NCBI RefSeq assembly: GCF_041429795.1
Contig: NZ_CP163424.1
Span: forward strand, 2,854,001 to 2,918,000
DNA: 64,000 nucleotides
DNA from: Algimonas porphyrae
Lineage (GTDB): Bacteria; Pseudomonadota; Alphaproteobacteria; Caulobacterales; Maricaulaceae
Direction: 5' to 3'
Below, piece after piece: positions 28,577-59,553 of this stretch. The number at the start of each line of letters is the position of its first letter. Position 1 is the stretch's first letter. A model generated the notes under the pieces. That model was not told the DNA's origin. It saw only the letters and a program-made list of their open reading frames with translations, and did no database searches. The position numbers and the translations under genes are program-made.

Positions 28577-28585
28577 GAGCGGATC

Positions 28586-32708: not shown

Positions 32709-32738
32709 GGTAAGGCGAAAGAAGACATTGCGAGGAGC

Positions 32739-40839: not shown

Positions 40840-40863
40840 AGTTCAATCCCCCAAAGTCATTTT

Positions 40864-40896
40864 TAGAATAGTATTCTATTTTTATACCGATGTCAA
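40864..40896 (-). promoter_or_regulatory. TonB receptor promoter with cluster operator
   Basis: On the minus strand a consensus -35 TTGACA (40896-40891), a 17-base spacer and -10 TACTAT (40873-40868). The operator copy TAGAAT-AGT-ATTCTA (40864-40878) covers the -10, which is ideal for repression. Confidence 0.85.
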
Positions 40897-40950
40897 AACT
40901 ATCCGTCTGAGCGCATCCCGAAGGTCGATCACGCCGCCTACCGACAGGAC

Positions 40951-42048
40951 TTAATCTGGATAGTTAAGGGTAACGACCCGGCCACTTTTCTGGCTCTCGT
41001 AAACACCTAGAACAGCGTCCAAAGCGGCTAAGCCGTCATCAAGACCGGCTGCCCAACCGGGCTGAGCCTCGCCCCTTATTGCACGGCCGAATTCCTCGGC
41101 CTGAAGACGAAAATGATTTGGATTCGGCAAGGGATCGACGGGTACTTGTCGCAGTCCATCCGCGTCGGCGTGATAGAGACGGTTAGCATAGGGATAAATC
41201 CGAAGCGCCCCATCCGATCCGTGAATCGTGAGTATGCATGGGTACGCATCATAACTGCCTGCGCTCACGAAGCCGTCCACGTTCCAGCCCGCCCCTTCCG
41301 TAAAGACGCCACTACCGGGCAGAGACAGACCGAACGTCCCTTCATCATAAGACAGGCTGACTAAGGCCCCTCTCTCCAGAGTCATCAGCACGGATTCCGC
41401 CAAAGGATGATCTCCGGAAATGTTTCCGCGACCAAAAACGCTGGTGGGGGCAAGCCCTGTGATCCAGCTGATCGCATCGATCAGGTGAACCCCGTGATCG
41501 ACAAGCCCCATGGGCGTTCCACCCGGTCCGCCTTCCGGATAATGAACAGGAGACAGGCTTTCGACAGCCTCGGCTCCCTGTCCCCCAATCAGACTTTCTG
41601 AGCAACATCGGATGACGCCAAGCGCCCCCGATTGCACGATCTCGCGGGCTTCCCGGATTGCTGGCAAAAAACGGTAGGACGCACCGAACTGGAAAGCCCT
41701 GCCCGTCTGCAAAACGATATTTCGGATCGCTTCGGCATCGGAGCGGCTCGCCGCGAGCGGCTTCTCGCACAGGACCGGGAGCCCTGCATTCATGGCGACC
41801 TTGATCACGGGCAAGTGGAATTGAGGCGGGGTCAGGACCAGAATGCCGTCCAGCGCTTCATTCGCGATCATCGATGTCACATCCGAATATGGCTTCAGCC
41901 CGTAATCTGCGGCGGATTTGGATGCCCTGTCCGAATTGATATCCGCCCCTGCCGCCAAGACAAGTCGGTCACTCGCAGCAATGCCGCGCATATGTTCCTG
42001 AGCGACTCCGCCAAGCCCGACCAAACCAAGCCGCATCCGTTTCGACAT
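40951..42048 (-). CDS. Gfo/Idh/MocA family oxidoreductase
   Basis: 365 residues from the ATG at 42048, 4 bases after the stop of the BKACE gene; the frame continues to 42294. The Rossmann start RLGLVGLGGVAQEHMRGIA, the D-x-N pocket (AGADINSDRA), LVLTPPQFHLPVIKVAMNAGLPVLCEKPLA with the family's EKP signature, and GLVDHGVHLIDAISW are present. NAD(P)-dependent dehydrogenase; relatives act on sugars, inositols and hydroxy compounds. Co-transcribed with BKACE. Confidence 0.92.
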   Translation of the reverse strand: MSKRMRLGLVGLGGVAQEHMRGIAASDRLVLAAGADINSDRASKSAADYGLKPYSDVTSMIANEALDGILVLTPPQFHLPVIKVAMNAGLPVLCEKPLAASRSDAEAIRNIVLQTGRAFQFGASYRFLPAIREAREIVQSGALGVIRCCSESLIGGQGAEAVESLSPVHYPEGGPGGTPMGLVDHGVHLIDAISWITGLAPTSVFGRGNISGDHPLAESVLMTLERGALVSLSYDEGTFGLSLPGSGVFTEGAGWNVDGFVSAGSYDAYPCILTIHGSDGALRIYPYANRLYHADADGLRQVPVDPLPNPNHFRLQAEEFGRAIRGEAQPGWAAGLDDGLAALDAVLGVYESQKSGRVVTLNYPD

Positions 42049-42052
42049 CGGA

Positions 42053-42967
42053 TTAGTTCCGACGCGTCGGCAGGCCCAGAATGCTCCGTGCCTGATCAAC
42101 TGTCGCAACCGGTCGACCCAGTATGTCGAGCAAATCTGCAGCGCGAGAGACCAATTGGCCATTCGTCGCAAACTCACCCTTGCGAAGATAAAGATTGTCT
42201 TCGAGTCCGACCCGGACATTCCCGCCCAGAAGCGCTGATTGCGCCACAACAGGGAACTGGTTCCGCCCGGTTCCCAGTGCGCCCCAGACGGCATTGTCAG
42301 GCAAGAGTCCGCGCAGATAGCTCATCGTCTCAGTGTTGGCCGGTGCATTATATTTGATGCCCAGGACAAACTGGAACAGTGGATCGCCATCGAACAGGCC
42401 TTCATCCAGAAGCTTTTGCGCCAGCACGATATCTCCGGCCTCGAACACTTCGATTTCAGGTTTGACGCCGAGTTCCTGGAACCGTTTCGCCATCTTCCGG
42501 AGCGTATCCGGCGTATTCAGATAGACGACGTCACGCCCGCTCGCGACCTGGTTGGATGTGGTGACATCAAGCGAACACATGTCCGGCCGACAGGCTTCGA
42601 TATGCTGATAGCGAACTTCCGCCGAGGCCACATCCGTCCCGGGACCCGCACGGCTCTCATCTTCGGGATCCGGATAAAACATGGCCAGACCGCCACATGT
42701 CAGATTGATGATCACGTCGGTTCCGGATTGCCGGATACGGTCCGTGATCTCCTCGAACAACGCGACATCCGTATTGCCCTCCCCCGTTTCGGGATCGCGC
42801 GTATGGATATGAACGATCGCGGCTCCCGCTTGGGCGGCCTCGATGGATGCGTCTGCAATCTCCTTCGGGGTTACGGGAAAAGCCGGGTGATTTCGATTGA
42901 ACGCCTCCCCGCCCGTCACTGCACAGGTGATGATGGCAGGGTCAGCGACAGATTCGACGATTGGCAT
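42053..42967 (-). CDS. Beta-keto acid cleavage enzyme (BKACE, DUF849)
   Basis: 304 residues from the ATG at 42967 with GGAG upstream. Zinc-dependent TIM barrel related to 3-keto-5-aminohexanoate cleavage protein: AIITCAVTGGEAFNR, the metal pair in AAIVHIHTRDPETG (HxH), then DVIINLTCGG and GALGTGRNQFPVV. Family members condense a beta-keto acid with acetyl-CoA to give acetoacetate and a new acyl-CoA. Operon with the Gfo/Idh gene. Confidence 0.93.
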   Translation of the reverse strand: MPIVESVADPAIITCAVTGGEAFNRNHPAFPVTPKEIADASIEAAQAGAAIVHIHTRDPETGEGNTDVALFEEITDRIRQSGTDVIINLTCGGLAMFYPDPEDESRAGPGTDVASAEVRYQHIEACRPDMCSLDVTTSNQVASGRDVVYLNTPDTLRKMAKRFQELGVKPEIEVFEAGDIVLAQKLLDEGLFDGDPLFQFVLGIKYNAPANTETMSYLRGLLPDNAVWGALGTGRNQFPVVAQSALLGGNVRVGLEDNLYLRKGEFATNGQLVSRAADLLDILGRPVATVDQARSILGLPTRRN

Positions 42968-42980
42968 GAAATGCTCCATT

Positions 42981-42997
42981 ATAGAATGTAATTCTAT
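42981..42997 (-). promoter_or_regulatory. Cluster operator upstream of BKACE
   Basis: ATAGAAT-GTA-ATTCTAT, 14 bases upstream of the BKACE start. A TTGACA hexamer lies upstream on the minus strand (43023-43018); the exact -10 is uncertain, and TATAAT at 42983-42978 overlaps the site. Confidence 0.85.
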
Positions 42998-43095
42998 TTT
43001 GTCCGTCTGATTCGATCTGTCAATAGAGATTGATGGGTGAACACTCAGCTCAGAGCCGGAACCGGAACCGATTACGGGTGACCATCAATGCCTTC

Positions 43096-43124
43096 TTGCA
43101 AATAGAATTTGATTCTATTACGTT
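43096..43124 (+). promoter_or_regulatory. Cluster operator and promoter of the M81 operon
   Basis: AATAGAAT-TTG-ATTCTATT (43101-43119) lies between a -35-like TTGCAA (43096-43101) and a -10-like TACGTT (43119-43124), spacing 17, for the operon starting at 43154. Confidence 0.85.
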
Positions 43125-43153
43125 AACGGCAAGTTGGAAAAGACATCCCCTTT

Positions 43154-44707
43154 ATGACGCTACGCATCGCCATCGCCGGAATACTTCTGGAAGCTAACCG
43201 CTTCGCCCCGGTTACAGCCCGGGCAGACTTCGACGCTTACCTCATGCAAAGGGGTGAGAGCCTCGGCGCTTTTGCACAGTTGATGGGACTTGCAAGCGCC
43301 GCAAATGATGAACTCGACATCGAGTTCGTCCCAATTCTAGTCGCGGGCGCTGAATCCGGTGGCCCACTCGATCATGCGGATTACCTCGAACTGGTCGCTG
43401 AAATCGAGACAGGCTTACGTGATAACGGACCGCTCGATGGTGTTTTCCTGTTTGCACACGGGGCCGGCCTGACAACTGAACTCGACGATCTCGATGGAGA
43501 CTATTTCGGCCGGGTGCGGGCTGTCGTTGGGCCGGACGTGCCTATTGTGGCGGAGCTCGACCTGCATGCCAACTTGTCCGATGCCATGGTTGAACATGCG
43601 GATTTGCTTGTCGGATATCGCACTAACCCGCATGTCGATGTAGCCGACAGGGCGAAGGAATGCATTGTTTCGCTCTGTCGCCTGATTGCAGGCGAACGCA
43701 TCGAGGTCGCCTATCAACGCCTGCCGCTTATCACCTCTCAGATTGCCCAACTCACTGGCCCCGGAACACCCTATCAAGCCGTCATTGATCACGGCGAAGC
43801 CCTGCGCGCGAAGCGTGCCGCACTCGCAAACGTTACGCTGCTGTCCGGGTTTTCCTTTGCCGACACCGCCTATAACGGGTTCGCGGTCTATGTTGCGGCA
43901 TGGGGCGACTCTGATCTCGCCATTTCCACATGTGATGCTCTTGCACGGGACCTCTGGGTCAGACGATCGGATTTCGCGGTCGATCCGATGACCGTAGAGG
44001 ACGCTGTCCGTCACGAAAAAAGCGCTCAGGCCGGCAACCTTCCTGGCCCTCGCATCTATGCCGACGTCGCGGACAATCCCGGCGGCGGTGGCCGCGGTAA
44101 TACGATTCATCTCCTCAAAGGATTTCTGGACGCCGGTCTGCCGGGCGTCATCGCCGGAGTCTATTATGACCCTGCCCTCGTTGCGGACGCCAACCGTCAG
44201 GGTGAAGGCGCGCACTTTCAGGCTCGCTTCAACAGTGCAGAGCCCAGCCCCCTTTCCGGCACACTGGATTGCCCTGCCATTGTGGAACGCCTTTTCATTG
44301 GCGATTTCATCAACGGACCGGGAGTCCAGGCCGGAGAGCGCGTGAAGCTGGGTGAATGCTGTCTGCTATCGCTTGGCGAAGGTCACGTAAAAGTGGTCGT
44401 CGTCAGTTATCGCAATCAGGTTTTCAATCCGGGATTCTTCACCTGTGCCGGACTGGACCCGACACGTGCGAAGGCCATCATCGTGAAATCGCGGGGTCAT
44501 TTCCGAGCCGGGTTCGCAGAGCTTGCCGGGCCTGAAGAGATATTCGAAGTCGATGCACCTGGACTTTGCACGGCAGATATTGCGTCGGTAGAGTGGTCCA
44601 ACCTGCCAAGCCCGACCTATCCGATGGACATTGACACATCATGGTCGTCCAATGTGATCCTGAAACCCTCACCGAGCGGATCCAATTTGGCAGGAGATGC
44701 CGCATGA
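43154..44707 (+). CDS. M81 family metallopeptidase (MlrC-like)
   Basis: 517 residues. Matches the M81 family: N-terminal RIAIAGILLEANRFAPV, FLFAHGAGLTTELDDLDGDYFGRVRAVVG, the zinc segment VPIVAELDLHANLSDAM (D-x-H) with VGYRTNPHVD (second His), and YADVADNPGGGGRGNT. Known members (microcystinase MlrC) cleave linear peptides next to unusual amino acids. First gene of a four-gene operon whose junctions overlap by 4, 4 and 1 bases; no signal peptide, so probably cytoplasmic. Confidence 0.9.
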   Translation: MTLRIAIAGILLEANRFAPVTARADFDAYLMQRGESLGAFAQLMGLASAANDELDIEFVPILVAGAESGGPLDHADYLELVAEIETGLRDNGPLDGVFLFAHGAGLTTELDDLDGDYFGRVRAVVGPDVPIVAELDLHANLSDAMVEHADLLVGYRTNPHVDVADRAKECIVSLCRLIAGERIEVAYQRLPLITSQIAQLTGPGTPYQAVIDHGEALRAKRAALANVTLLSGFSFADTAYNGFAVYVAAWGDSDLAISTCDALARDLWVRRSDFAVDPMTVEDAVRHEKSAQAGNLPGPRIYADVADNPGGGGRGNTIHLLKGFLDAGLPGVIAGVYYDPALVADANRQGEGAHFQARFNSAEPSPLSGTLDCPAIVERLFIGDFINGPGVQAGERVKLGECCLLSLGEGHVKVVVVSYRNQVFNPGFFTCAGLDPTRAKAIIVKSRGHFRAGFAELAGPEEIFEVDAPGLCTADIASVEWSNLPSPTYPMDIDTSWSSNVILKPSPSGSNLAGDAA

Positions 44708-45960
44708 CCTTATTCAAGCGGCCCGACCTTTTCCGGGCGAATAGTCTCGCAACGGTGGCCTTGGTAACCATCGCCTCTGCACTGAGTGCCTGTACGACTG
44801 TGACGGACAGGCCAGCCCAGGCCGAAACAACACTGGATTTAACAGAATTCGAAAGGATCTTCGCAACGGCACAGACCGACGCGGATGCGCCCGGTGCATC
44901 GATTGCCATTTCAGTTGACGGCGTCACGGTCTGGTCTGACGCATTTGGTCTCGCCAGTGTCGAACTCGACGTCGCAGCGCGGCCAGATACACGCTTTCGG
45001 ATCGGAAGCACGTCCAAGCCGATGACCGTCACGGTACTGGCCCGTATGGTGGAGCGCGGCGAAGTCGCATGGGACGACACGATCGGCCAGTATTTGCCAA
45101 ACCTTCCCGAAGCGCTCAAGACAATCACCCTCGCCGAACTCGCGTCAAACCGGTCAGGCATACGCCACTATCGGGACAGAGAGTTCCGCGATGGGGAGCG
45201 AGTCTGGTGGCAACATTTTCCAAGTACCGAAAGCAGTCTGAGCCTGTTCAAGGATGATCCGCTCGTCAGCACACCCGGCGACACCTTTCACTACTCCACT
45301 TATGGCTGGACACTTCTGGCGGCGGTTCTGGAAGCTGCGGCTGGACAGGATTTTCCGACCCTGTTGCATAAGGACGTCTTTGGCCCGCTGAGGATGACGG
45401 ACACGCAAATCGATCATGCCTTTCTGTTCGTGCCCAACCGCACTCAATTCTACTGGCGAGCCCCAACGGGCCAGCTGACCAATGCGCCGTTTACGGAAAA
45501 CTCCTACAAATGGGCCGGCGGCGGGATCGTTTCGACATCGGACGACCTGCTTCGCTTTGCCAATGGATGGCTGGACGGCACGATTGTTCCGCCAGACTTG
45601 CGAGAGGTCATGTGGACGAACCAGACTGTCCGAGACGGGACCGAGACTGTTTACGGGCTGGGCTGGTTTGTCGGTTATGACGACGTGATTAGTCGGTTCT
45701 CAGACTCGGGTGAGACAGTTCCGGTCGGGTTACGCGGGTTATCCGACGCTGGGATCCATGTGATCGAGCACCGTGGCGGACAGATTGGCGGTTCGACCGT
45801 ACTCTGGATTTTTCCCGATTTTGACATTGTCGTGACGGGAAGCTGGAACATGACGGGTGAAGGCCGAAAACTTTACGCTGCCACACTGCAGATCGCCTGC
45901 CAGACGATTGCGGCGCAGGCCGATGCACCGGAAATCCGCTGCTCAGGTCATTCAGAGTGA
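44704..45960 (+). CDS. Beta-lactamase-fold serine hydrolase lipoprotein (MlrB-like)
   Basis: 418 residues from the ATG at 44704, overlapping the M81 stop by 4 bases. A lipobox ALSAC makes it a lipoprotein facing the periplasm. The class C beta-lactamase/DD-peptidase fold has S-x-x-K as GSTSKPMT (Ser about 102), a Y-x-x motif as HYSTYGW, and the third motif as EHRGGQIGG. The family includes D-aminopeptidases, esterases and MlrB. Its position right after an M81 gene recalls microcystin clusters. Confidence 0.88.
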   Translation: MTLFKRPDLFRANSLATVALVTIASALSACTTVTDRPAQAETTLDLTEFERIFATAQTDADAPGASIAISVDGVTVWSDAFGLASVELDVAARPDTRFRIGSTSKPMTVTVLARMVERGEVAWDDTIGQYLPNLPEALKTITLAELASNRSGIRHYRDREFRDGERVWWQHFPSTESSLSLFKDDPLVSTPGDTFHYSTYGWTLLAAVLEAAAGQDFPTLLHKDVFGPLRMTDTQIDHAFLFVPNRTQFYWRAPTGQLTNAPFTENSYKWAGGGIVSTSDDLLRFANGWLDGTIVPPDLREVMWTNQTVRDGTETVYGLGWFVGYDDVISRFSDSGETVPVGLRGLSDAGIHVIEHRGGQIGGSTVLWIFPDFDIVVTGSWNMTGEGRKLYAATLQIACQTIAAQADAPEIRCSGHSE

Positions 45961-47330
45961 ACCTCAACGCTCAGCAAAACGACAGACTGAACTGGATCAA
46001 GATCGCAGTCATCGGCGTCATGTGCATGGCGCAGACCTTTCCCTACTATCTGGTCAATTCGACGGTCCCGACCCTGTTCCGCGCCGAAGGTCTGGCGCTG
46101 GAAGACTTCTGGGCCTTTTCCATCATGACGATTCCCGCCTGGGCGAAATTTCTCTGGGCGCCCTTTGTGGATCGCTATGGCTGGGTGGCCTTCGGTCGCC
46201 GAAAATCGTGGATTCTGACCTGTACACTTCTAGGTGTCGCATCGCTCTGGATTCTGATCTTCACTCCGCCATCGACCGAAACCCTGGCTGTCGTGATCGC
46301 TATCCTCTTTGTCCATCTGTTGATCATGTCCACGCAGGATATTGCGGTGGATGCCTACACACTCGAAAATCTGACCGAGCATGAACGCGGGGCCGGCTCA
46401 GCCTTCAAGGTTTTTGCCGAAGCGGTCGGCGAAGCGCTGGCATTGGGGGGACTGATGTATATCTACACGCGAGTCGTCTTTCCGGGAACGTCGAGCGGCT
46501 GGACATCCATGATCCTGGCCGCTGGTTGCGCTCTGATCCTCTTCACGCTTCCTGTATTGATCCGACGTGAACCTCCCATGGCCCCGGAGCTGGAATCGCG
46601 GAGAGCGTCCGGAGACCGACCCCGCCTATCGAAATTCTTCGTCCGTCCCGACACGCCCCCGATCATCGCCCTGTTGCTGGTCGGAGGGTTCATCAATTTC
46701 ATGCTGCCGCCTCTGATCGGACCCCTGCTGGTCGACAAGGGATTTTCCTTGCTGGACGTCGGCATCATTCTCGGAACGGTCACGCCTGTCGCGGCTCCGC
46801 TCGGCGCCATTTCGGGCGGTGCGCTGATCACCCGGATTGGATTGAGAACGTCGCTGATGGTTCTGAGTTCCGCCAGCGCGATCGTCGCGGTCTTGGTGGT
46901 TGGAGCCGTCGCGAGCGGCCTCGACGTTCCTGCTTGGTTCATGCCGATTTCGGAAACAATTGCGGGCCAGTTTCAAAGCTGGAACAATGGTACAAGGGTG
47001 ATCTATGCAATCGCCGTTTTCATTCCCGTCGTCTGGATGATCGCGATGACACATATGGTCTTTACCGTGTCCCGCATGGGCTGGGCGTCTCGGACACAGG
47101 CGGGAACGGACTTCACACTGCATGGTGCATTCTACAATATCGGTCGCACATTGGCCGTCGCCATCAGCCCTTTCATCGCCGCATTCTTCGGCTGGGCCGT
47201 CTTTACCGCCGTTCTCGGTTTCCTGCTGACTGGACTGGCTCTCGCCTACTGGATCATCTTGCCGGGGCTGGAACGCGTGTGCGATCGCCGCCGGATCAGC
47301 GAAGGTGAACTTTTACTCGAACCGAGCTGA
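45957..47330 (+). CDS. MFS transporter, AmpG/PAT-like
   Basis: 457 residues, GTG start overlapping the previous stop by 4 bases. About 12 transmembrane helices. AmpG-like features: FSIMTIPAWAKFLWAPFVDRYG, GRRKSWIL, QDIAVDAYTLENLTEHERGAGSAF. AmpG-type carriers import peptidoglycan-derived glycopeptides and other peptides across the inner membrane. In this operon it most simply imports hydrolysis products for the cytoplasmic enzymes. Confidence 0.88.
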   Translation: MNLNAQQNDRLNWIKIAVIGVMCMAQTFPYYLVNSTVPTLFRAEGLALEDFWAFSIMTIPAWAKFLWAPFVDRYGWVAFGRRKSWILTCTLLGVASLWILIFTPPSTETLAVVIAILFVHLLIMSTQDIAVDAYTLENLTEHERGAGSAFKVFAEAVGEALALGGLMYIYTRVVFPGTSSGWTSMILAAGCALILFTLPVLIRREPPMAPELESRRASGDRPRLSKFFVRPDTPPIIALLLVGGFINFMLPPLIGPLLVDKGFSLLDVGIILGTVTPVAAPLGAISGGALITRIGLRTSLMVLSSASAIVAVLVVGAVASGLDVPAWFMPISETIAGQFQSWNNGTRVIYAIAVFIPVVWMIAMTHMVFTVSRMGWASRTQAGTDFTLHGAFYNIGRTLAVAISPFIAAFFGWAVFTAVLGFLLTGLALAYWIILPGLERVCDRRRISEGELLLEPS

Positions 47331-48487
47331 TGGACATGACGACGCCTTTTTCGGACCTCACAACACCTGCCCTATTACTGCAACGCGACCGACTGGTTCG
47401 GAATGCACATGATGCGTTGGCCCGCGCCCACCATCTAGGCGTGATGTTGAGGCCGCATTTCAAAACGGCCAAATCTGTTGAAGTGGCACAGCTCATGCTC
47501 GGTCAGAATATGGACCGGATGGCTGTCTCGACCCTGCCTGAAATCACCATGCTCTTTGCGGCCGGCATTCGCAACATCCGCTACACCTCGCCCTTTGACC
47601 CTACCAAGTTGAATGGCTTGCAGGATATGTTGCGCGCCGGACTTGAACTGGAAATCCTGGTCGATGACCGCAGCGCCATCGAAGCGATCTCGAACCAGGC
47701 AGACCGTCTGCGCGTCTCGGTCGGCTTGATCGTGGAAGTCGACGTTGATGGGTATCGCGCGGGCCTTCCGGCACAGGGCGATGTCCTGAGTTCCATCGCG
47801 AAATCAATCACCGATGCGCCGGGCATATCCTTCGTCGGCCTCTACAGCTTTGCCGGGCAGACTTACCGGCTTGCCGACCGCAAGGACCGCCAAGCCCTGA
47901 TCGAACGTCATCGCGCAACGCTGGTGTCTTTTGCGAGCGCTCTCGAGAAACAGGGTTTGCCTTGTGCGACGCTGGGTATCGGATCTTCACCGGTTCTGGC
48001 GGACGCAGTTCACCTGGACGGGCTGACGGAAGTCTGCGCCGGCGTTTACTGTTTTCAGGATCTGACACAGGCGGGCATCGGAGCCGCACAGATCGACGAT
48101 CTTGCGGTAAGCGTCTTGGCAACTGTCACTCAACGCAAATCCGACGACGGACGCATCTTTATCGACGCCGGCGGGCTGGCTCTGTCGCAGGACCGCAGCA
48201 CGCGCGGACAGTCGGTCGATCAGGGTTATGGTCTGGTCTGTGATGCGTTGACGGGCAGGCCCGTGGGAGACGGTGACATCATCGTGGCTCGCACCAGTCA
48301 GGAACACGGTGTTCTGATGCGACGTGATGGCCGCTCAGCACCCGCAGAACTATTCCCTATCGGGCGGCGCGTCAGGATTCTGCCAAACCATGTTTGCATG
48401 ATGGCGGCCGCCTATCCTGCCTATACCGTCATTGATGGCGACAAGAGCGCTGAGAGATGGGAACGGGCTACAGGTTGGACCCTCTAA
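47330..48487 (+). CDS. D-threonine aldolase / D-serine dehydratase-like PLP enzyme
   Basis: 385 residues. Fold-type III PLP enzyme: TPALLLQRDRLVRNAHDALARAH, the PLP lysine in LRPHFKTAKSVEVA (about residue 44), and a C-terminal DSD domain with metal ligands in ILPNHVCMMAAAYP. Such enzymes cleave D-3-hydroxy amino acids to glycine plus aldehyde, or dehydrate D-serine. The start overlaps the MFS stop by one base, ending the operon. Substrate not fixed, but D- or beta-hydroxy amino acids are expected. Confidence 0.9.
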   Translation: MDMTTPFSDLTTPALLLQRDRLVRNAHDALARAHHLGVMLRPHFKTAKSVEVAQLMLGQNMDRMAVSTLPEITMLFAAGIRNIRYTSPFDPTKLNGLQDMLRAGLELEILVDDRSAIEAISNQADRLRVSVGLIVEVDVDGYRAGLPAQGDVLSSIAKSITDAPGISFVGLYSFAGQTYRLADRKDRQALIERHRATLVSFASALEKQGLPCATLGIGSSPVLADAVHLDGLTEVCAGVYCFQDLTQAGIGAAQIDDLAVSVLATVTQRKSDDGRIFIDAGGLALSQDRSTRGQSVDQGYGLVCDALTGRPVGDGDIIVARTSQEHGVLMRRDGRSAPAELFPIGRRVRILPNHVCMMAAAYPAYTVIDGDKSAERWERATGWTL

Positions 48488-49077
48488 CCCGCCGCATCGG
48501 AAACCGGCAGCGGCAGCGTTTTCAACATTTCCGAAATCGACTTGAACGCAGGGTTTTTGGCGGTTCCGAGACATTCAAACATCGCCATTTCGGTCGTGAT
48601 TGGAACGACACCCTGATTTCCGAGGCGTCGCATCGCGATAGAGCGGTCCGGCATGCGGCGCGAACTGATCGCCGACCAGACGCAGAAAACCTCATAGCCG
48701 AGTACGACCGCATCCAGAGCCGTCTGTAGAACGCAGACATGCGCCTCGCATCCCGCAAGAACAAGCTGATCGCGGCCAGCCTCACGGGCTGTTGCAAGGT
48801 GATCGCGCATGGCACCATCCGCTAGTACCGAGAAATCCGTCTTGGACATCACTCTCGCCGCATTTGCCTCGACCAGCGATGGCACGTTGAGCGCGCTGAC
48901 CGTCGAACCGAGACCTGATGGATATTGCTCGCTGATCAGAATGGGCACATCCAGTTTACGAGCTGCACCTGTCAGCGCCGCACAGTGCGCAATCATCCGA
49001 TCAGATTGCGACAAGGCCGGGATGAGCCGGTCCTGAACATCGATAATGATAAGATGCGCGCGAGCTGGATCAATCAT
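48484..49077 (-). CDS. Isochorismatase-like cysteine hydrolase
   Basis: 197 residues from the ATG at 49077, preceded by AAGGTAAAG. The catalytic triad is visible: Asp in LIIIDVQDRL, Lys in MSKTDFSV, and Cys in AGCEAHVCVLQTALDA. The family hydrolyses vinyl ethers, amides and N-carbamoyl groups (nicotinamidase, N-carbamoylsarcosine amidase). It overlaps the convergent PLP-enzyme gene by 4 bases, and an operator copy lies upstream, shared with the divergent OCD gene. Confidence 0.9.
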   Translation of the reverse strand: MIDPARAHLIIIDVQDRLIPALSQSDRMIAHCAALTGAARKLDVPILISEQYPSGLGSTVSALNVPSLVEANAARVMSKTDFSVLADGAMRDHLATAREAGRDQLVLAGCEAHVCVLQTALDAVVLGYEVFCVWSAISSRRMPDRSIAMRRLGNQGVVPITTEMAMFECLGTAKNPAFKSISEMLKTLPLPVSDAAG

Positions 49078-49102
49078 GGCTTTACCTTGAGGCAATTGGG
49101 TA

Positions 49103-49125
49103 ATAATAGAATTTAATTCTATTAT
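49103..49125. promoter_or_regulatory. Cluster operator between isochorismatase-like and OCD genes
   Basis: The longest central copy: AATAATAGAAT-TTA-ATTCTATTATC, with 10-base perfect arms around a 3-base centre. It lies 17 bases upstream of the OCD start and 26 upstream of the divergent hydrolase start, so it can control both. Confidence 0.9.
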
Positions 49126-49141
49126 CTACGGAAGCTTTCCC

Positions 49142-50110: not shown

Positions 50111-50113
50111 TTC

Positions 50114-51217: not shown

Positions 51218-51254
51218 CTTCGTTATCACCCACCCGTCCCTGAAAGGATATTCC

Positions 51255-51950: not shown

Positions 51951-51961
51951 AACAGCACGTC

Positions 51962-52684
51962 CTAAACAGGTGGGAGTCGTACCGGACGTTGCAGCATTTC
52001 GGTTGAGTTCACGATCCGCTTGACGCTGCGACGTTGCTCCGGCGTGAGCTTGCCTGCATCCGGGCCGCCTGCGGCCCTGTACCAGCTCCTGGCCAGCCGA
52101 ATGGCGAGATCAAGAGGCTTTTCACCTCGGATCAGCTTGTCACTCGTCATTAAGCGAGACTGGCTGATCAACAGACCGTCCATGCCGTTGAACAGGAGTT
52201 CGGCGAGGATGATGTCATCCTCGTCTGGCGCCTCACGGCCGTTATTGGCCGCGATGAGCTTCGCAAATCCTTTGACCAGTTTGCTTTGCCGCGGCAGCCA
52301 GGATGCTGACACGCTATCCGGATTGATGTTGAAGTACCATTGCAGCAACTGCGTGTGGCCGCGGCGATTGATGTATTGCTGAACGGACCGCCAAGCGAGC
52401 AAAAAGGCTGAAGAGAACAGGTCTTCGTCTCCAATATTATCGAAATAGGCGAAGAACTGTTCAATATCCTCTTCCGCAATCGCGGTCATCAGACCGTCTT
52501 TGCTCTTGAAATGGAAGTAGATCGATCCGACCGTAATCTCGGTCTCTTCCACCACATCTTCAATTGAAATCGTGTCGAAATCCCGGACAGCCAAGAGGTT
52601 GCGGACACCTTCCTTAACGCGTCTGCGCGTCCTTTCCCCCTTGGTTATCTTTACCGGTTTGTCCTGGGTCTGAGGAGCACTCAT
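51962..52684 (-). CDS. TetR family regulator, probable regulator of the catabolic cluster
   Basis: 240 residues. N-terminal HTH: RVKEGVRNLLAVRDFDTISIEDVVEETEITVGSIYFHFKSKDGL, a clear TetR signature, then an all-helical ligand domain. It is the only transcription factor in the catabolic part, so the six palindromes with AATAGAAT half-sites are probably its targets. Its own promoter has no such copy. Ligand unknown. Confidence 0.9.
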   Translation of the reverse strand: MSAPQTQDKPVKITKGERTRRRVKEGVRNLLAVRDFDTISIEDVVEETEITVGSIYFHFKSKDGLMTAIAEEDIEQFFAYFDNIGDEDLFSSAFLLAWRSVQQYINRRGHTQLLQWYFNINPDSVSASWLPRQSKLVKGFAKLIAANNGREAPDEDDIILAELLFNGMDGLLISQSRLMTSDKLIRGEKPLDLAIRLARSWYRAAGGPDAGKLTPEQRRSVKRIVNSTEMLQRPVRLPPV

Positions 52685-52821
52685 CAGATCACCAATGTAT
52701 GGAAGAAGCTGAAAACAACGATCATATATATACGCCTGCTAGTGAGGCCGCTCACATATGGGAACTCCCTTGATGAGGCAAGACGAGGCGACTCTGCCTG
52801 CCCAATGATGCGTCCAATTGC

Positions 52822-54840
52822 CTAGAAACGACCCGGTATTTCCAAGCCTAGGAAACCTAACAGTATTGTCGAATAAATCACGACAACCGCAAGACAGACG
52901 AAAACACCCAGATATACCACGGATATGCCGGGTCGTTCGCCCCCCCCACTGAGAATACGGCGCAAAGACAGAGCCGCCGTCAAGATCAAACCAAGAGCGC
53001 AAATCCAGGCCAGATTACCGAGAACACCCCACATCATCATCACCCAGTCTGCTTCCAGCAGGATACGTTGGGTCTGTATTTCCAGAACGAGCAGGGGCCA
53101 TAGAAAAACCGAAAGGCCGAAGGCTCCTGCCGCGGTCGCCAATGCGCGGACCGGAAAACGCGCGAAGGCAACATTGCGGCTTAGAAATGCCAGCCCGGCT
53201 GTCATCAGCAGTAGGAAGGACGCAAAAATATGCAGTTCCTGCCGTACGGATGGCGATTGCAAACCCTCTGTTCGGTCCCAAACAGAGGGGTAATCATCAA
53301 CGAAACTGACGATCTTCCCGTCAACTTCCTTGAAGGCAGCAGTCCGGCTGCCATCAGGTGTCATGAAAATGTTCGGTCCGACGGGCTTGAACCCTTTGCG
53401 ACCACGGATGGTCAACGAGCTGTCGTCGGCGACCCTCACTTTGGCTTCGCCCTCATAACCAAAAATCTGCACAAATGTGGAATGGGCTCTCTGACGGTTC
53501 CAATAAGTGCCTTCGAAACGTTTAAGTGCTTCGGCTTTAACATCCGTGTTGGCTGTAGGAGCGAACTCTCTCGGTCCTAGATAAAAGCTGGCAATTGTAT
53601 ATGCCATGCGAAAGGGCAACCAAGCGCTGCCGACACCGTCCTGATTGAAGACCTTCCAGAATTGGTCCTTCCGGTCATAATAGGGTACGTCACCAACTTC
53701 CGTGACGAAAACACCCAGATCTTCGTCTGGCACCAAAAGCATGAAGGTTCGGAATGTCTGCACATTCCCGGAATGGCTCAGCGTCTTATGCCCGCTATAA
53801 TCACCTACCCAGATCACAAAGCCAAATTTAGGGATGTTTGGAGCATTATAGTTAGATGCCATGGCCGTGTGCATCAGAGTGTAAGTCTCTGGCTGCAATA
53901 ACTGCCGAGAAAATTCCGTCTCGCCCCGCTCAAGGTGCGCGCGCATGAATTTCGTCATGTCTTCAGCTGTCGAGTAAATCCCGCCTGAAGGAATGAAATA
54001 AGGGTGTTTCGGGAAGTAGGGAATCGTCTCCCAGGACCCGTCCTGTCTCAGGATAGCCGGTTTGGCCAAACCATCCGGTGGCGCGACACCGTCCTGCAAG
54101 TCCAATCCCGAATTCGTCATTCCGAGCGGCTGCATGATATTCTGTTCGACATAGTCGCCAAATGTCATTCCGCTCACGTCTTCAACGATTGCGCCCAACG
54201 TGGATACGCCGAAGTTGGAATAGACGCTTTCCTGTCCAGGCGGGCTGATCGGACGCGGCAGGAAGGATCGTATTTCATCGCCATCGACAGGCATGTCGTA
54301 ATTCCGGGTTGTGAATGTGTGGACATCGAAGCTTTCCAGTCCACCCCGATGTGTGAGCAGGTCCGAGACCGTGATCGCCCGATTATAGGCGGTCGGCAGT
54401 TGAAACCGGGTCAAGTAGCGATTGGCCGGCGCATTCAGATCGACAAGTCCTTCATCGACGAGCTGCGCCAGAGCCGTCGCGGTAAACCACTTGCTGACCG
54501 AACCCAGACGGAATTGCGTCTGCCTCGGATCGATCGGGCTGCCGCCAGTCGGCGCGTCCATTCCGTAGCCGGACAGGCTGACGAGTTCCCCGTCCTTCAT
54601 GACGGCAATCGAGGCACCGACATAAGGCGCGGCCCCCTTATCCTGGTTCGCCAGATCATCGATCAGCGATTGAACCTCTCCATAGTTGTTCAGATCAAGT
54701 GATTGCGGCTTTGGTTTCGTCACGCTCGAAAAAGCCGTCAGCATGATAATGATTATCATCGCCAGAAGCGCCAATCCCATAATGATGAGTGCCTGAAGCG
54801 GTTTCCGGATAGTGCGTCCATCTTGTTCTGAGTGCGCCAT
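52822..54840 (-). CDS. Beta-lactamase-fold serine hydrolase with C-terminal membrane domain
   Basis: 672 residues from the ATG at 54840, preceded by GGGGGAT. An N-terminal helix (LIIMGLALLAMIIIIMLTAF) anchors it; the periplasmic domain has S-x-x-K as GSVSK (Ser114, Lys117), Y-x-N as VYSNFG (Tyr205) and a H-x-G as LSHSGN. Four transmembrane helices close the protein (LHIFASFLLLMTAGLAFL onwards). CubicO-type enzymes with this layout include D-aminopeptidases and esterases. Divergent from the acyl-CoA ligase across an operator. Confidence 0.88.
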   Translation of the reverse strand: MAHSEQDGRTIRKPLQALIIMGLALLAMIIIIMLTAFSSVTKPKPQSLDLNNYGEVQSLIDDLANQDKGAAPYVGASIAVMKDGELVSLSGYGMDAPTGGSPIDPRQTQFRLGSVSKWFTATALAQLVDEGLVDLNAPANRYLTRFQLPTAYNRAITVSDLLTHRGGLESFDVHTFTTRNYDMPVDGDEIRSFLPRPISPPGQESVYSNFGVSTLGAIVEDVSGMTFGDYVEQNIMQPLGMTNSGLDLQDGVAPPDGLAKPAILRQDGSWETIPYFPKHPYFIPSGGIYSTAEDMTKFMRAHLERGETEFSRQLLQPETYTLMHTAMASNYNAPNIPKFGFVIWVGDYSGHKTLSHSGNVQTFRTFMLLVPDEDLGVFVTEVGDVPYYDRKDQFWKVFNQDGVGSAWLPFRMAYTIASFYLGPREFAPTANTDVKAEALKRFEGTYWNRQRAHSTFVQIFGYEGEAKVRVADDSSLTIRGRKGFKPVGPNIFMTPDGSRTAAFKEVDGKIVSFVDDYPSVWDRTEGLQSPSVRQELHIFASFLLLMTAGLAFLSRNVAFARFPVRALATAAGAFGLSVFLWPLLVLEIQTQRILLEADWVMMMWGVLGNLAWICALGLILTAALSLRRILSGGGERPGISVVYLGVFVCLAVVVIYSTILLGFLGLEIPGRF

Positions 54841-54872
54841 ATATCCCCCGATGATCCGCAAGCAAAAGAAAC

Positions 54873-54887
54873 TAGAATACAATTCTA
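54873..54887. promoter_or_regulatory. Cluster operator between serine hydrolase and acyl-CoA ligase genes
   Basis: TAGAAT-ACA-ATTCTA with the same 3-base centre as the other copies, between the divergent genes (starts 54840 and 54934 or 54892). Confidence 0.85.
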
Positions 54888-54933
54888 TTACATGCTAACG
54901 AACTCTGCGTCAATGATGGGAGGAACGGTCAGC

Positions 54934-56430
54934 GTGGTAGAGGGTTTTACAAGTCTAACCGATCGCATTGACGATTTTGCAAAAGCGCGGCCGGGCACTC
55001 CAGCCCTGATCGGCCCTGAGGAAATGCTCAGCTGGCGAGACTTGCAAAAACGGATGGATGGATGGGCGCATTCACTCTCTGAAGACCCACCCCCTGAAAC
55101 GGTTGCGCTGCTCAGTACGAACACGCTGGACGGCCTGTGTGCCATGCTCGGGATTTTGAAGGTGGGGGCTTATGTCACGCTTCTGCCGTATCATGCCAGC
55201 GATGCCACAATTGAGGTTCTGCTATCCGATAGTGGTGCCACAGTTCTGGTGGGCGATTCAGATCGGCTGCAGGCCCTAGGCCACCTCCACGACGTCAAGA
55301 CTCACAGTCTGGGAGAAACGATCTCGGCCATGAAAGCCGAGCCCTTTGAGTCCAATCCGGTGATCAACGCCAACACGCTCTTCAACTGCGCCTATAGTTC
55401 CGGAACTACCTCCAAGCCGAAGGGCATTCTGCAAAGCCATGGGTTGCGCAACTCGCAAATTCTGTCGGGCGGGATAATGGGAATGGGACCCGGCCGGGTC
55501 TCTATTCTGTCCACGCCGCTGGACTCCGATACGACGATTGTCGGCCTCGTTGGCGCGTTAGGCAACGGATCGACCGTGATATTGATGGAGCGGTTTTCTG
55601 CGGACGGTTTTTGCGAGTTGGTCGAAATGCACGGCGTAACTCATACGCTGATGGTTCCCGTGCAATATGAACGGATTCTGGCGTCCAACTCGTTCGACAA
55701 CACAGACCTCTCATCGTTACAATTGTCACTTTGCACCGGCGCTCCTCTGAGCGTTGCGACCAAAATCGATCTGATGGACCGCTGGCCGGGAGCCTTTATC
55801 GAAGTCTACGGCTTAACGGAAGGCGGCGCCACCACGCTCCTCTCGCTGCGCGACAATCCCGAAAAGCTTTCCACGGTTGGCCGGCCTTTTCCAGGCACGG
55901 ATATGCGCATCATTGGTGATGATGACGCGGAACTGCCGGTTGGAGAGATAGGAGAAATTGTCGGACGCGATGCCAACATGATGGTCGGATATACGGATGC
56001 GGATGCTCAGAGCGCCATTGTCTGGACATCTCCGGACGGCCTCGATTTCATCCGCACAGGGGATCTGGGGGCCTTTGACAAGGACGGCTTTCTGACAATC
56101 TGCGGACGCAAGAAGGACATGCTGATTTCAGGCGGTTACAATATCTACCCGCCTGACCTCGAGACTGCCTTGAGCCAGCACCCAGCCATATTCGAATGCG
56201 CCGTTATTGGCCGCCCGGACCAGCGCTGGGGCGAGGTGCCGGTCGCTTATGCGGGTTTGCGCTCAAATTGCGATCCGAGCCTTTTGAAACAATGGGTCAA
56301 CGAGAGGCTCGGCAAAACACAACGCATTGCGGATGTCCGGATCATCAACTCCTTGCCGCGGAATGCTGGCGGCAAAGTCGACAAGAATGCACTCAGAATC
56401 ATGGAAGAAGGAAAGCTCTCAGATGGCTGA
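54934..56430 (+). CDS. AMP-forming acyl-CoA synthetase
   Basis: About 498 residues. The ANL motifs are complete: P-loop CAYSSGTTSKPKG, YGLTEGG, DLGAFDKDGFLTICGRKKDML hinge, and the catalytic lysine in GGKVDKNAL. The GTG at 54934 has the best ribosome-binding site (GGGAGGA, 8 bases upstream); ATG codons at 54892, 54913 and 54916 are alternatives, the first closely following the operator. Activates a carboxylic acid released by the hydrolases. Overlaps the MaoC gene by 8 bases. Confidence 0.93.
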   Translation: MVEGFTSLTDRIDDFAKARPGTPALIGPEEMLSWRDLQKRMDGWAHSLSEDPPPETVALLSTNTLDGLCAMLGILKVGAYVTLLPYHASDATIEVLLSDSGATVLVGDSDRLQALGHLHDVKTHSLGETISAMKAEPFESNPVINANTLFNCAYSSGTTSKPKGILQSHGLRNSQILSGGIMGMGPGRVSILSTPLDSDTTIVGLVGALGNGSTVILMERFSADGFCELVEMHGVTHTLMVPVQYERILASNSFDNTDLSSLQLSLCTGAPLSVATKIDLMDRWPGAFIEVYGLTEGGATTLLSLRDNPEKLSTVGRPFPGTDMRIIGDDDAELPVGEIGEIVGRDANMMVGYTDADAQSAIVWTSPDGLDFIRTGDLGAFDKDGFLTICGRKKDMLISGGYNIYPPDLETALSQHPAIFECAVIGRPDQRWGEVPVAYAGLRSNCDPSLLKQWVNERLGKTQRIADVRIINSLPRNAGGKVDKNALRIMEEGKLSDG

Positions 56431-56902
56431 AACCAAGCTGGAAACACTACAGGCGCTCGTCGGAACCACGTTCTCTCCAAGCGACTGGATCTTGGTCGAT
56501 CAAGATATGATCACCAATTTCGGAAACCTGACACTCGACCCGGATCCTTACCACCAGAGCCCGGACTGGGCCGCCAAGCATAGCCCGTTCGGCGCACCAA
56601 TTGCTTACGGATTCTTGACCGTCAGCCTGCTCAGCCATTTGCAGCGGTCCGCTTTTGTGAACTCCATGGCGACTGAGAACTCTTCCATTGGCGAGATCGG
56701 CATGCCGCTCAACTACGGATTTGATCGATTGCGGATGATCCAGCCTGTGAGAGCCGGACAGAGTATTCGTGGCGTTTTCAGCTTGAAGTCAGTGACTGAA
56801 AAGCCTGGCCGCGGCGTCCTCATGACCGTCTCCAGCACAGTGGAAATTCAAAAAGAGGACCGCCCAGCCATGATCGCGGATTGGCTGTTCATCGTCCCGT
56901 AG
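56423..56902 (+). CDS. MaoC-like (R)-hydratase domain protein
   Basis: 159 residues. Single hot-dog domain with the hydratase motif region DPDPYHQSPDWAAKHSPFGAPIAYGFL (Asp and His of the active site, with AYG in place of the usual AHG), and a C-terminal strand VLMTVSSTVEIQ. Hydrates enoyl-CoA, so it follows the acyl-CoA ligase in a beta-oxidation-like route. Overlaps the ligase by 8 bases. Confidence 0.9.
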   Translation: MAETKLETLQALVGTTFSPSDWILVDQDMITNFGNLTLDPDPYHQSPDWAAKHSPFGAPIAYGFLTVSLLSHLQRSAFVNSMATENSSIGEIGMPLNYGFDRLRMIQPVRAGQSIRGVFSLKSVTEKPGRGVLMTVSSTVEIQKEDRPAMIADWLFIVP

Positions 56903-56959
56903 AGACCCTTCTCTGCAACCCGCATCTTATTGACGGGATCGTTACAGACCGAGAACCGG

Positions 56960-58120
56960 ATGTTGAAACCGACCTTACTCACTACAGGCTTACTATGGTC
57001 CTTACTGGCTCCACAGACATGTCTAGCCAATGAAAACGGCTTCCTGTCCTACACGGCCGACCTTCTCGCCAATGTCGATGGCGGAATTGAAACCGGATAT
57101 CGATATGTCGACCTATTCCATGGTGGATATGCTGTAGAGCTATCGCCTGCACTGCTTCTCCATGCCAGCGCGATATACGCTAATGGAGGGAACTTCACGA
57201 CCGATCTGGTCGGCGATGATCAGACGATCGGCAATATCGAGTCCGGCACACCGCTTGCCCGATTATATGAGGCCTGGGCGGAAATCGGCAGTGAAAAAGT
57301 ATCCCTGAAAATTGGTCTTTACGATGTCGGTAGCGAATTTGACGCGCTCGAGTTTTCGAGTCTCTTTCTAAACGGAACGTATGGGACCGGTTTCGACCTT
57401 GTGCAAGCTGGGCGTACCGGCCCTTCGATCTATCCGTTTCTGTCTTTTGGCGCCCGTGCCGCCTTCCGGCACGACGGCACTGCCCTTCGCGTGGCCGTAC
57501 TGGACGGAGCGGCTGGTGACCCAGATGACTCGGACGATTTCGGTGTCGATTTAAACGCTGAAGACGGCATGTTCATCATCGGTGAAATAGAACGTTATGC
57601 CGATAACTGGCGTGTCTTTGCCGGAGCCTGGAGCTTCACGGGAGACTTCGAGAAAATTGCGCAAACACCGCAAGCCCCACCTGACTTCGGTTCCAATAGT
57701 GGCTTCTATGTACGGGGCGAATATAGTTGGACACTTAGAGACGGGCGGTCCCTTTCTACCTTTGCGCGGGTTGGCCTCGCAGATAGACAAGTCAATGTTT
57801 ATGAGACCTTTCTCAGCACCGGCATGGTGCTAGACGCGCCATTTTCCCATCATCGCCCCAATGATCAAATGGGACTTGCCGTTGCAAGGGCCGGGTTAGG
57901 AGAGCCTGAACGCGCGGCGCGAGCGATTGCGACCGGCTTTAACGGCCTGGCCAGTTCCGCAACGGCCGAAACGAACATCGAACTGACTTACGCTTTCGCC
58001 TTATCCGACAACTTCGTTCTACAGCCCGATATTCAATATACTATCGATCCGGGAGCCACAGATAACATTGATAATGCTCTGGTATTCGGCTTCAGAATAG
58101 GCGCCGATTTTCCATTTTAG
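56960..58120 (+). CDS. OprB-like carbohydrate-selective porin
   Basis: 386 residues from ATG 56960: signal peptide (LLTTGLLWSLLAPQTCLA), GYRYVDLFHGG, the characteristic ARLYEAWAEIGSEKVSLKIGLYDVGSEFD, YGTGFDLVQAGRTGPSIYPFLSFGARAAF and a final GADFPF with a terminal Phe. These are OprB-family features. It follows MaoC by 57 bases, with a possible promoter TTGACG in between. A second outer-membrane channel for the cluster. Its 3' end overlaps the PepSY gene by 29 bases, convergently. Confidence 0.85.
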   Translation: MLKPTLLTTGLLWSLLAPQTCLANENGFLSYTADLLANVDGGIETGYRYVDLFHGGYAVELSPALLLHASAIYANGGNFTTDLVGDDQTIGNIESGTPLARLYEAWAEIGSEKVSLKIGLYDVGSEFDALEFSSLFLNGTYGTGFDLVQAGRTGPSIYPFLSFGARAAFRHDGTALRVAVLDGAAGDPDDSDDFGVDLNAEDGMFIIGEIERYADNWRVFAGAWSFTGDFEKIAQTPQAPPDFGSNSGFYVRGEYSWTLRDGRSLSTFARVGLADRQVNVYETFLSTGMVLDAPFSHHRPNDQMGLAVARAGLGEPERAARAIATGFNGLASSATAETNIELTYAFALSDNFVLQPDIQYTIDPGATDNIDNALVFGFRIGADFPF

Positions 58121-59492
58121 CCTGCCAAGTTAGTCGGCCAAGGTAAGCTGTTTTATACCGTAGTGCCAGACACAGAAGGCCCAAGCCTGTAAGACCGAAT
58201 GCAAGGTTGGCTGGCCAAACTATGCGGAGGCCGGGATGGAGAAGCATCTCGGCTGCGGTCGCTCCTACAATCAGCGTCGCTAGCGAAATGAGCGCAAGCC
58301 GGCGTGAACACCATGCCACACCTCCCGTAACGGCGCTCATGAAGAGAAAAAGCCACGGATAGGCCCCCTCGCTCAAAGAGGCTTCCATCAGAAAAGGAGC
58401 CAGAACCAGAAGCGAAACCATTGCAGCGGGAGTGGCGATCAAGAATGCAAGCGCAAAGCGTCGTCCCCTATCCGGCCAATATCGCTCAAAGCTCATCACA
58501 GCTCCCAATGCGCACAGACAGGCGAGCAACAGGCCGACCCCGAGGGTCGGCAGCTTTGTTATGAAGCCATAGGATTGACCATAATGTAGCGGGGCGGAGG
58601 CTACAGCCATACGTGTCAACATATCCCCACCGCCACCATACACACTGATGCGTTTTCCAAGCACTATATCGTAGACGATTTCGATATCCCGACGCAGGGG
58701 GCCTGCCTTCTCTCTATATTCGACGATGGCCAGTACCGACGTATCTGAGTCCGGTTTGACCCGGACAGATCGTACAATTCCAGGGCCAACTAATTCGGAG
58801 GCATCTCGCAGTGCTGCATCGAGGCCAGGGCTCATGAATTCTGGCGCTTGCAAACTGGAGTGCGATACAGGCGCTGACGCCGATAATGCCTCGCGAACCT
58901 GTTCGAGCACCATAATCGTACCGGTACCAATCACGAATATGGCCGGAAGAAACACAATGCGACCAAGACGGCGATGCAGATCCCATCTTCGATATTTTGC
59001 AGGTCGTTTCTTGCTGTCACGCCGAACCCTGGACCAAACCTTGGGCAGCAAACTCCCGACAATTAGCAGCAGGACCGCTAGCAAACCGATCAATCCCAGT
59101 AATATCCGCCCAAGATCACCGGACAGCCCCAAATCAGTATGCAGATTTCTGATATAACGAACCGGCCCAACAGTCGGGTAGGACGGAAGCAATCGTCCTG
59201 AAGGGGAGACATATTGCGCTTCACCGTCACCAACCCTGACGGTCCATACAGGTCGGTCCGTGCGAGGTGGAATGAAAAGAGCCTCTTCTTTGTCATCACC
59301 CATCATGACCGACAGCAAAACTGACGCCGTTACCGGCTGAACATAGTCAACTCTGTGGGTTGGTCGTTCCCATACATATAAGTCATCTTCGAATACCGAT
59401 GCCACACCAGCGCAAACAACAAAAAACAGAATTAGGGATAACCATCCGCCTAAGACGACATGAAAGGTTCGAAGCCGATGCTTGAATGACAT
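58092..59492 (-). CDS. PepSY-associated transmembrane protein
   Basis: 466 residues from the ATG at 59492 (59504 alternative). The first helix, FHVVLGGWLSLILFFVVCAGVASVFED, the block NLHTDLGLSGDLGRILLGLIGLLAVLLLIVGSLLP, and DLHRRLGRIVFLPAIFVIGTGTIMV are the PepSY-TM hallmarks, with further helices at the C-terminus. Such proteins often accompany TonB receptors and may reduce or process their ligand. Its promoter carries the cluster operator. Confidence 0.9.
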   Translation of the reverse strand: MSFKHRLRTFHVVLGGWLSLILFFVVCAGVASVFEDDLYVWERPTHRVDYVQPVTASVLLSVMMGDDKEEALFIPPRTDRPVWTVRVGDGEAQYVSPSGRLLPSYPTVGPVRYIRNLHTDLGLSGDLGRILLGLIGLLAVLLLIVGSLLPKVWSRVRRDSKKRPAKYRRWDLHRRLGRIVFLPAIFVIGTGTIMVLEQVREALSASAPVSHSSLQAPEFMSPGLDAALRDASELVGPGIVRSVRVKPDSDTSVLAIVEYREKAGPLRRDIEIVYDIVLGKRISVYGGGGDMLTRMAVASAPLHYGQSYGFITKLPTLGVGLLLACLCALGAVMSFERYWPDRGRRFALAFLIATPAAMVSLLVLAPFLMEASLSEGAYPWLFLFMSAVTGGVAWCSRRLALISLATLIVGATAAEMLLHPGLRIVWPANLAFGLTGLGLLCLALRYKTAYLGRLTWQAKMENRRLF

Positions 59493-59500
59493 ACGTGCCC

Positions 59501-59553
59501 TCACTCATAATAGAATACAGTTCTATTATGAGTGAGGCTTTCTAAGCTTGCAA
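59501..59553 (-). promoter_or_regulatory. PepSY promoter with extended cluster operator
   Basis: Arms TCACTCATAATAGAA/TTCTATTATGAGTGA (59501-59515 and 59521-59535), 15 bases perfect with a 5-base centre. On the minus strand TTGCAA (59553-59548), 17 bases, then CATAAT (59530-59525): the operator covers the -10. Confidence 0.88.

Follow-up and report, generated by a model that had tools for sequence, protein, structure and literature searches.

TetR-type repressors that act on several promoters of a catabolic gene set through one palindrome offer the closest described parallels to the locus analysed here. EdcR of Caenibius tardaugens, a TetR-like protein that represses the estradiol (edc) cluster, recognizes the operator TnnCnnTACnAnTnGTAnnGnnA and responds to estradiol and estrone as inducers; it acts at four promoter regions, two of them with a weaker operator copy (PMC8700777). 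KstR, a TetR-type repressor of lipid and cholesterol genes in mycobacteria, uses the palindrome TAGAAC(N2)GTTCTA, which partly overlaps a -10 and lies in the promoter region of kstR itself as well as before other genes of the regulon (PMC1995591). Here we examine six copies of a 17-base palindrome in a nutrient-use gene cluster of about 20 kb in Algimonas porphyrae, within a window of 64,000 nucleotides (NZ_CP163424.1, positions 2,854,001 to 2,918,000; coordinates below are those of the window unless said to be of the genome). Sequence comparison suggests that the six palindromes are very probably the operators of the cluster's own TetR-family repressor, and that they would define a local regulon for an amide- or peptide-like substrate.

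Six palindromes and the promoter-like matches beside them

The palindrome, in its full form ATAGAAT-n3-ATTCTAT, occurs at six sites between 40863 and 59526, each with at most one mismatch (Table 1). A search of the window with ATAGAATNNNATTCTAT at up to three mismatches returned seven matches where 1.1 were expected, namely the six sites and an overlapping shadow at 54877, and none of 100 shuffles reached seven. A census blind to the motif, covering exact 5-base arms with spacers of 0 to 12, gave TAGAA-n5 as the largest palindrome family in the window (six members); of 40 Markov simulations, three gave a largest such family of five members and 37 gave a smaller one. When arms of exactly 6 bases were required, TAGAAT-n3 came first with five members, and none of 40 simulations produced more than two. 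A matrix built on the six sites scores them at 24.8 to 29.1, and the next window places, at 14.4 and 11.2, both overlap true sites.

An earlier reading of this DNA from its letters (the sequence-only reading) had reported six copies, all of which we find. Its positions 40864, 43101 and 54873 hold to within one base, a matter of which letter is counted first, and those given as 49103 and 59501 are off by three and nine bases. It had also described arms and centre as conserved and flanks as different. This is true of the core TAGAA-n5-TTCTA, which is invariant in all six sites, and less so of the 7-base arms, which are perfect in three; the consensus is approximately ataaTAGAAt-n3-aTTCTAttat, with an A/T-rich extension in most. 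Operator 6 lies within a longer perfect palindrome (59499-59537, 17-base arms and a 5-base centre) directly before the PepSY start, a structure that the other five sites lack and that, if transcribed, could fold over the Shine-Dalgarno region. The six sites are all intergenic, as had been claimed, when likely start codons are used, and not all are with the longest starts. One end of site 2 is a single base from the ATG of the longest open reading frame (ORF) for the beta-keto acid cleavage enzyme (BKACE), where a later ATG preceded by GGAG exists, and site 5 reaches into the longest minus-strand ORF at its start (TTG, 54882) and is contained in the longest plus-strand ORF (GTG, 54832).

Between 40700 and 59800 there are 19 promoter-like (sigma70-like) matches, against 9.6 in shuffles, and seven of these overlap a palindrome site, including four of the six that have 10 of 12 consensus bases. 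Two of the seven, at sites 3 and 6, are oriented away from the adjacent cluster gene, and site 2 accounts for two, which makes any probability calculated for this overlap a rough one. A -10 box lies inside site 1 and is touched by two bases at sites 2, 4 and 6, in matches of 9 to 10 of 12 that face cluster genes; site 2 touches the -10 of TTGACA-16-CAAAAT or, on another choice of boxes, sits between CGGACA and TATAAT. The overlap with a -10 box reported earlier for the sites at the TonB receptor and PepSY genes is borne out at sites 1 and 6. The repressor geometry proposed in the same reading is recognizable at sites 1, 2, 4 and 6, where the arrangement is repressor-like and a bound protein would be expected to block polymerase, and it is weak at sites 3 and 5.

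The whole genome (3,169,281 bp) contains seven sites at up to two mismatches (two for the reversed-pattern control), six of them in the cluster, so that a genome-wide search came out much as the sequence-only reading had anticipated, with one further copy. The probability that six of seven genome sites would fall within 18.7 kb is 2.9e-13. The seventh site, at genome position 3080453, is flanked by two divergent ORFs. One of these resembles an extracytoplasmic function (ECF) sigma factor, as judged from its translation rather than from a family search; as an operator the site is unproven. Searched for exactly, the core also occurs at seven places in the genome (control 3): the six cluster sites and one at 2613489, which is not the seventh site just described.

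The TetR protein, its cluster and a counterpart in another family

We assigned families by Pfam and NCBIfam matches to 22 ORFs between 34722 and 62559, two of which have no Pfam match. TetR is the sole regulator family matched among the 22, in keeping with the earlier statement that the TetR protein is the only regulator inside the cluster. This protein carries the TetR_N helix-turn-helix (PF00440; E 3.2e-09, 36.9 bits against a cut-off of 24). Its predicted structure, of moderate confidence (mean pLDDT 68), is all-helical with a C-terminal ligand/dimer domain, as in the TetR family, and its fold neighbours are TetR-type structures. Several of their titles name coenzyme A (CoA) or acyl-CoA ligands (KstR, DesT, PvrA, FadR), which may be a weak hint to the inducer. 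The TetR gene lies 137 bases downstream of an S12 gene on the same strand; the gap holds no terminator-like match on that strand and nothing closer to the operator than six mismatches, and the simplest reading is therefore that transcription of the TetR gene starts from the site 5 promoter.

Relatives of the TetR protein were sought by protein search, with no use of the motif. Beyond the protein itself there was no match in 137 genomes of its family at 1e-10, in 385 genomes of its class at 1e-15, in plasmids at 1e-5, or in a collection of genome contigs searched with the single protein; scanned with a two-sequence TetR alignment, that collection yielded the contig CALFRH010000325.1 and one 28% fragment. 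Among 299 genomes of the order, searched at 1e-12, two other TetR matches were found. One (49%, E 1e-65) is in an uncultured Parvularcula metagenome-assembled genome (MAG; CALFRH01, here G751), to which the contig just named belongs and which is of a different family from the window's; the other (28%, E 2.7e-13) is in a genome referred to as G569. The TetR is absent at 1e-15 from the other 61 genomes searched of the G751 family.

At up to one mismatch, 28 of the 299 genomes of the order have any match to the motif, and the highest counts are those of the Algimonas genome and G751, with seven each (control 0), followed by three genomes with four; G569 has none. The chance that the two clear TetR holders would also be the two motif-richest genomes is 2.2e-5 if genomes are treated as interchangeable, which related genomes are not quite. 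The two TetR proteins are identical at 38 of 53 positions across residues 14-66, the DNA-binding part, and at 75 of 171 thereafter, and this stronger conservation of the DNA-binding part is as would be expected if the operator were kept.

On the G751 contig with the TetR gene, whose choice rested on nothing but the protein search, three sites fall within 18.8 kb: between TetR and M81, before the pyridoxal phosphate (PLP) enzyme and before an S12 hydrolase. The probability of three sites on this contig is 8.6e-7 at the control rate and 4.6e-5 if all 19 sites of the genome (at up to two mismatches) were scattered randomly. This is a fairer figure than a count of four of eight units, which mixes units found by their sites with units separately sought, the homologues of the MFS, Gfo/Idh, isochorismatase and PepSY genes being outside the genome-wide search. 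Clear homologues of cluster genes stand behind four of the 19 sites: one site lies between TetR (49%) and the M81 homologue (56%), one before the PLP-enzyme homologue (41%), one before the acyl-CoA ligase homologue (52%), with a MaoC homologue (54%) behind the ligase, and one before the S15 homologue (45%). Four further sites are at family-level relatives, comprising the S12 hydrolase (28%), two TonB receptors (25-29%) and a TonB-like ORF (33%) that, taken from its longest start, just includes its site. In G751 the PLP-enzyme and S15 genes have sites of their own; in the window they are apparently operon-internal and lack one, which suggests that sites follow genes through rearrangement. The recurrence of the same TetR, the palindrome and several target genes in a distant genome lends support to the assignment of the sites to the TetR protein, first proposed in the sequence-only reading. 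Two details of G751 may be added. One of the TonB receptors behind a site is split into plug and barrel ORFs (L073 6200-8359), by a frameshift or an assembly error. A two-mismatch site (L079 327-343) is followed, at a distance of 41 bases, by a malate synthase G gene; it would fit a glyoxylate-releasing pathway and may equally be a chance site.

Similar gene sets also occur elsewhere. One genome from the family of the window (G107) groups together homologues of the M81, S12, PLP-enzyme, OCD-like and TonB genes (L094 774-16874; 26-45% identity), with no TetR match and with no site at up to three mismatches in 19 kb. The regulator is thus not needed for a gene set of this kind to exist, and, to judge from this one genome, the motif accompanies the TetR and not the enzymes. 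In 20 M81-anchored regions (about 20 kb) of other alphaproteobacteria, drawn from among the M81 matches listed, none has a site at up to three mismatches; PLP-enzyme or OCD homologues are present in five of the 20.

Table 1. Candidate operators and genes of the cluster (window coordinates; mismatches are to the full palindrome)
Feature	Position	Strand	Remarks
CoA-transferase pair	35137..36488	-	possibly in the operon of the TonB receptor
S15 family hydrolase	36557..38374	-	possibly in the operon of the TonB receptor
TonB-dependent receptor	38482..40839	-	first gene behind operator 1
Operator 1, TTAGAATAGTATTCTAT	40863..40879		1 mismatch; before TonB receptor (minus); contains -10 of TTGACA-17-TACTAT
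Gfo/Idh/MocA oxidoreductase	40951..42051	-	
BKACE	42053..42979	-	
Operator 2, ATAGAATGTAATTCTAT	42981..42997		0 mismatches; before BKACE-Gfo/Idh (minus)
Operator 3, ATAGAATTTGATTCTAT	43102..43118		0 mismatches; before M81 operon (plus)
M81 metallopeptidase-family protein	43154..44707	+	distantly MlrC-like
S12 hydrolase	44641..45960	+	
MFS transporter	45957..47330	+	
Alanine-racemase-N / D-serine dehydratase-type PLP enzyme	47330..48487	+	
Isochorismatase-like hydrolase	48484..49095	-	
Operator 4, ATAGAATTTAATTCTAT	49106..49122		0 mismatches; between divergent isochorismatase-like and OCD-like genes; touches -10 of TGGACA-16-GATAAT (minus)
Ornithine cyclodeaminase (OCD) family, BhcD-like reductase	49142..50110	+	
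Porin O/P-like	50114..51217	+	behind OCD
TetR-family regulator (P0001)	51962..52684	-	PF00440
S12 (beta-lactamase fold) hydrolase	52822..54882	-	likely start ATG near 54840
Acyl-CoA ligase (AMP-binding)	54832..56430	+	
Operator 5, CTAGAATACAATTCTAT	54872..54888		1 mismatch; between divergent S12 hydrolase (TetR gene downstream) and acyl-CoA ligase genes
MaoC-like hydratase	56327..56902	+	
OprB porin	56930..58120	+	
PepSY-associated transmembrane protein	58092..59504	-	
Operator 6, ATAGAATACAGTTCTAT	59510..59526		1 mismatch; before PepSY gene; touches -10 of TTGCAA-17-CATAAT (minus)

The porin O/P-like ORF is overlapped by an ORF with no Pfam match (51144-51950), and 50114-51950 is possibly one interrupted porin gene. 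Flanking the cluster are an rve transposase-type integrase, a TrbI conjugation protein and an AbiEii/AbiEi pair (27139-33356), which suggests a mobile or integrated element. The cluster is A+T-richer than the first 28 kb (G+C 0.561 against 0.585).

A repressor model and its competitors

In the model that we favour, a dimer of the TetR repressor would sit on or beside six promoters and shut off uptake (TonB receptor, porins and MFS transporter), hydrolysis (M81, the two S12 proteins, S15 and the isochorismatase-like protein) and the downstream steps (PLP enzyme, OCD, BKACE, CoA ligase and MaoC). The repressor would come off in response to a pathway intermediate, perhaps a CoA thioester formed by the 54832 ligase. 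Site 5 probably controls the S12-TetR transcript, which would make the repressor autoregulated in part at least. What we infer from these patterns comprises binding and repression, autoregulation, the extents of the operons, the substrate and the inducer.

A number of observations pull the other way. The TetR gene has no palindrome directly in front of it here. Site 3, which had been placed between a -35 and a -10, may fill the spacer of TTGCAA/TACGTT as proposed, in a promoter match that is weak (7 of 12), and site 5 has candidates of 8 of 12 at best on either side. The G751 assembly has a contamination of 6%, and its 19 sites compare with five for the control, so that about five should be there by chance. 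Eight of the 19 front genes unseen in the window cluster (an M20 peptidase, TerB-DnaJ, a family-less ORF, malate synthase, DUF1800, another TetR-type gene, an integrase and, at a distance of 353 bases, a transposase), and three are inside predicted ORFs. In G751, no site at up to three mismatches accompanies the homologue of OCD (45%) or either of two homologues of BKACE (58%), and the S12b-like gene there has a 4-mismatch resemblance only. The bare core TAGAA-n5-TTCTA shows no excess in that genome (eight against eight for the control), and the signal there therefore needs the fuller motif.

There are other ways to read the sites. The palindrome might be read by another regulator encoded elsewhere, of IclR, GntR or MarR type or a different TetR, while the TetR of the cluster regulates something else. 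AT-rich palindromes do serve other families, as IclR examples quoted in a paper on PheR, an IclR regulator, indicate (PMC13273656); with no site directly before the TetR gene here, and with one G751 site before a different TetR-type gene, the idea has some appeal. Nevertheless we think it improbable, given that no other regulator family was matched among the 22 ORFs scanned, that the TetR holders are the two motif-richest of the 299 genomes, that a G751 site lies directly between TetR and M81, and that a site is likewise missing from a relative in which several homologous enzymes occur without a TetR match. Slightly less credence still is due to a TetR protein that acts as an activator, or in both directions, rather than as a simple repressor. 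At sites 1, 2, 4 and 6 a bound protein should exclude polymerase from the -10 boxes that the sites contain or touch; it is true that some TetR relatives activate, that there is a weak match to the DhaS activator model (24 of 129 bits), that a LuxR-DNA "activation" structure is among the fold neighbours, and that weak promoter matches such as those at sites 3 and 5 can be a property of activated promoters.

It is very hard to credit that the repeats are no operators at all and owe their presence to a mobile repeat, to base composition or to chance. Mobile-element genes near the cluster and its higher A+T content might be invoked, but conservation ends shortly past the core and the flanks differ (the longer palindrome at site 6 excepted), shuffles and simulations fail to reproduce the palindrome family, and the motif reappears in another family in front of genes that are 41-56% identical; the G751 comparison already largely contradicts this explanation. 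Chance or composition in particular, as the source of the six sites, is rejected on the grounds of the shuffles, the simulations and the count of sites in the genome.

As a kind of regulation, a TetR repressor of this sort would be ordinary. Its interest lies in the common operator, which suggests which loosely annotated enzymes belong together (M81, BKACE, S12 and OCD-like), in the prediction that one compound induces all the units, for which the TetR protein and its 17-bp operator offer a handle for finding the compound, and in a case of operators recurring before homologous genes whose order has changed. It is tempting to go further, although we regard the extended version as rather unlikely: a TetR lineage not seen before, and very rare among the genomes searched, would govern a transferable regulon for the full use of an unusual peptide, non-ribosomal or containing D-amino acids, by way of the M81 and S12 hydrolases, the PLP enzyme, the reductase and CoA-dependent steps, with operators that stay with their genes as the order is reshuffled between families, and with a CoA thioester or an amino-acid intermediate as the inducer.

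Comparison with known systems

A small repressor-controlled gene set of this composition, with an operator that recurs in a distant relative, is apparently undescribed. The sequence-only reading had called the regulon undescribed, a judgement that our literature searches uphold and from which it takes its whole weight: no description of the operator or the regulon was found in the literature covered, most subscription papers being outside that coverage. A literature match to the operator string was part of a construct sequence.

Individual proteins recall two catabolic systems whose curated cut-offs they do not reach. The OCD-like and PLP proteins match the NCBIfam models of BhcD and BhcC from the beta-hydroxyaspartate cycle, but both fall below the curated cut-offs (410 against 500 bits for BhcD, and 96.8 against 690 bits for BhcC), and membership in that cycle is rejected. 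The regulator of the beta-hydroxyaspartate cycle is of IclR type. The M81, S12 and MFS genes in a row (43154-47330) resemble MlrC, MlrB and MlrD of the mlr set for microcystin degradation at the level of family only, with MlrB and MlrD taken in the roles commonly given to them in that set. The M81 protein matches the MlrC structure 7ylq (E 1.2e-39); it scores 144.7 bits against an MlrC cut-off of 999, and membership in the microcystin pathway is rejected. No ORF of the cluster matched an MlrA-like family in the general Pfam and NCBIfam scans, which included no search aimed at MlrA.

KstR is the first Foldseek match of the moderate-confidence TetR model (5fmp, E 2.7e-4), with KstR chains at 14-17% identity. 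It is not named among 28 PDB sequences at E of 1e-3 or below (KstR2 appears at 0.01) or among the 50 VIA-align rows listed, which excludes nothing. The KstR operator has the half-site TAGAA in common with ours. However, the arms here are one base further apart (TAGAA-n5-TTCTA in six of six sites, against n4 in the KstR operator), and the inner bases are mostly T/A (T on the left, A or G on the right) rather than C/G. With spacing and inner bases both different, we reject membership in a KstR regulon.

In design, the closest known system is EdcR. There, as here, a TetR gene lies inside a catabolic cluster, palindromes overlap -10 boxes at several promoters, and the operator is kept in a second genus along with the DNA-binding domain. 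The two differ in the operator itself and in extent, with four promoter regions for EdcR and six sites in Algimonas porphyrae.

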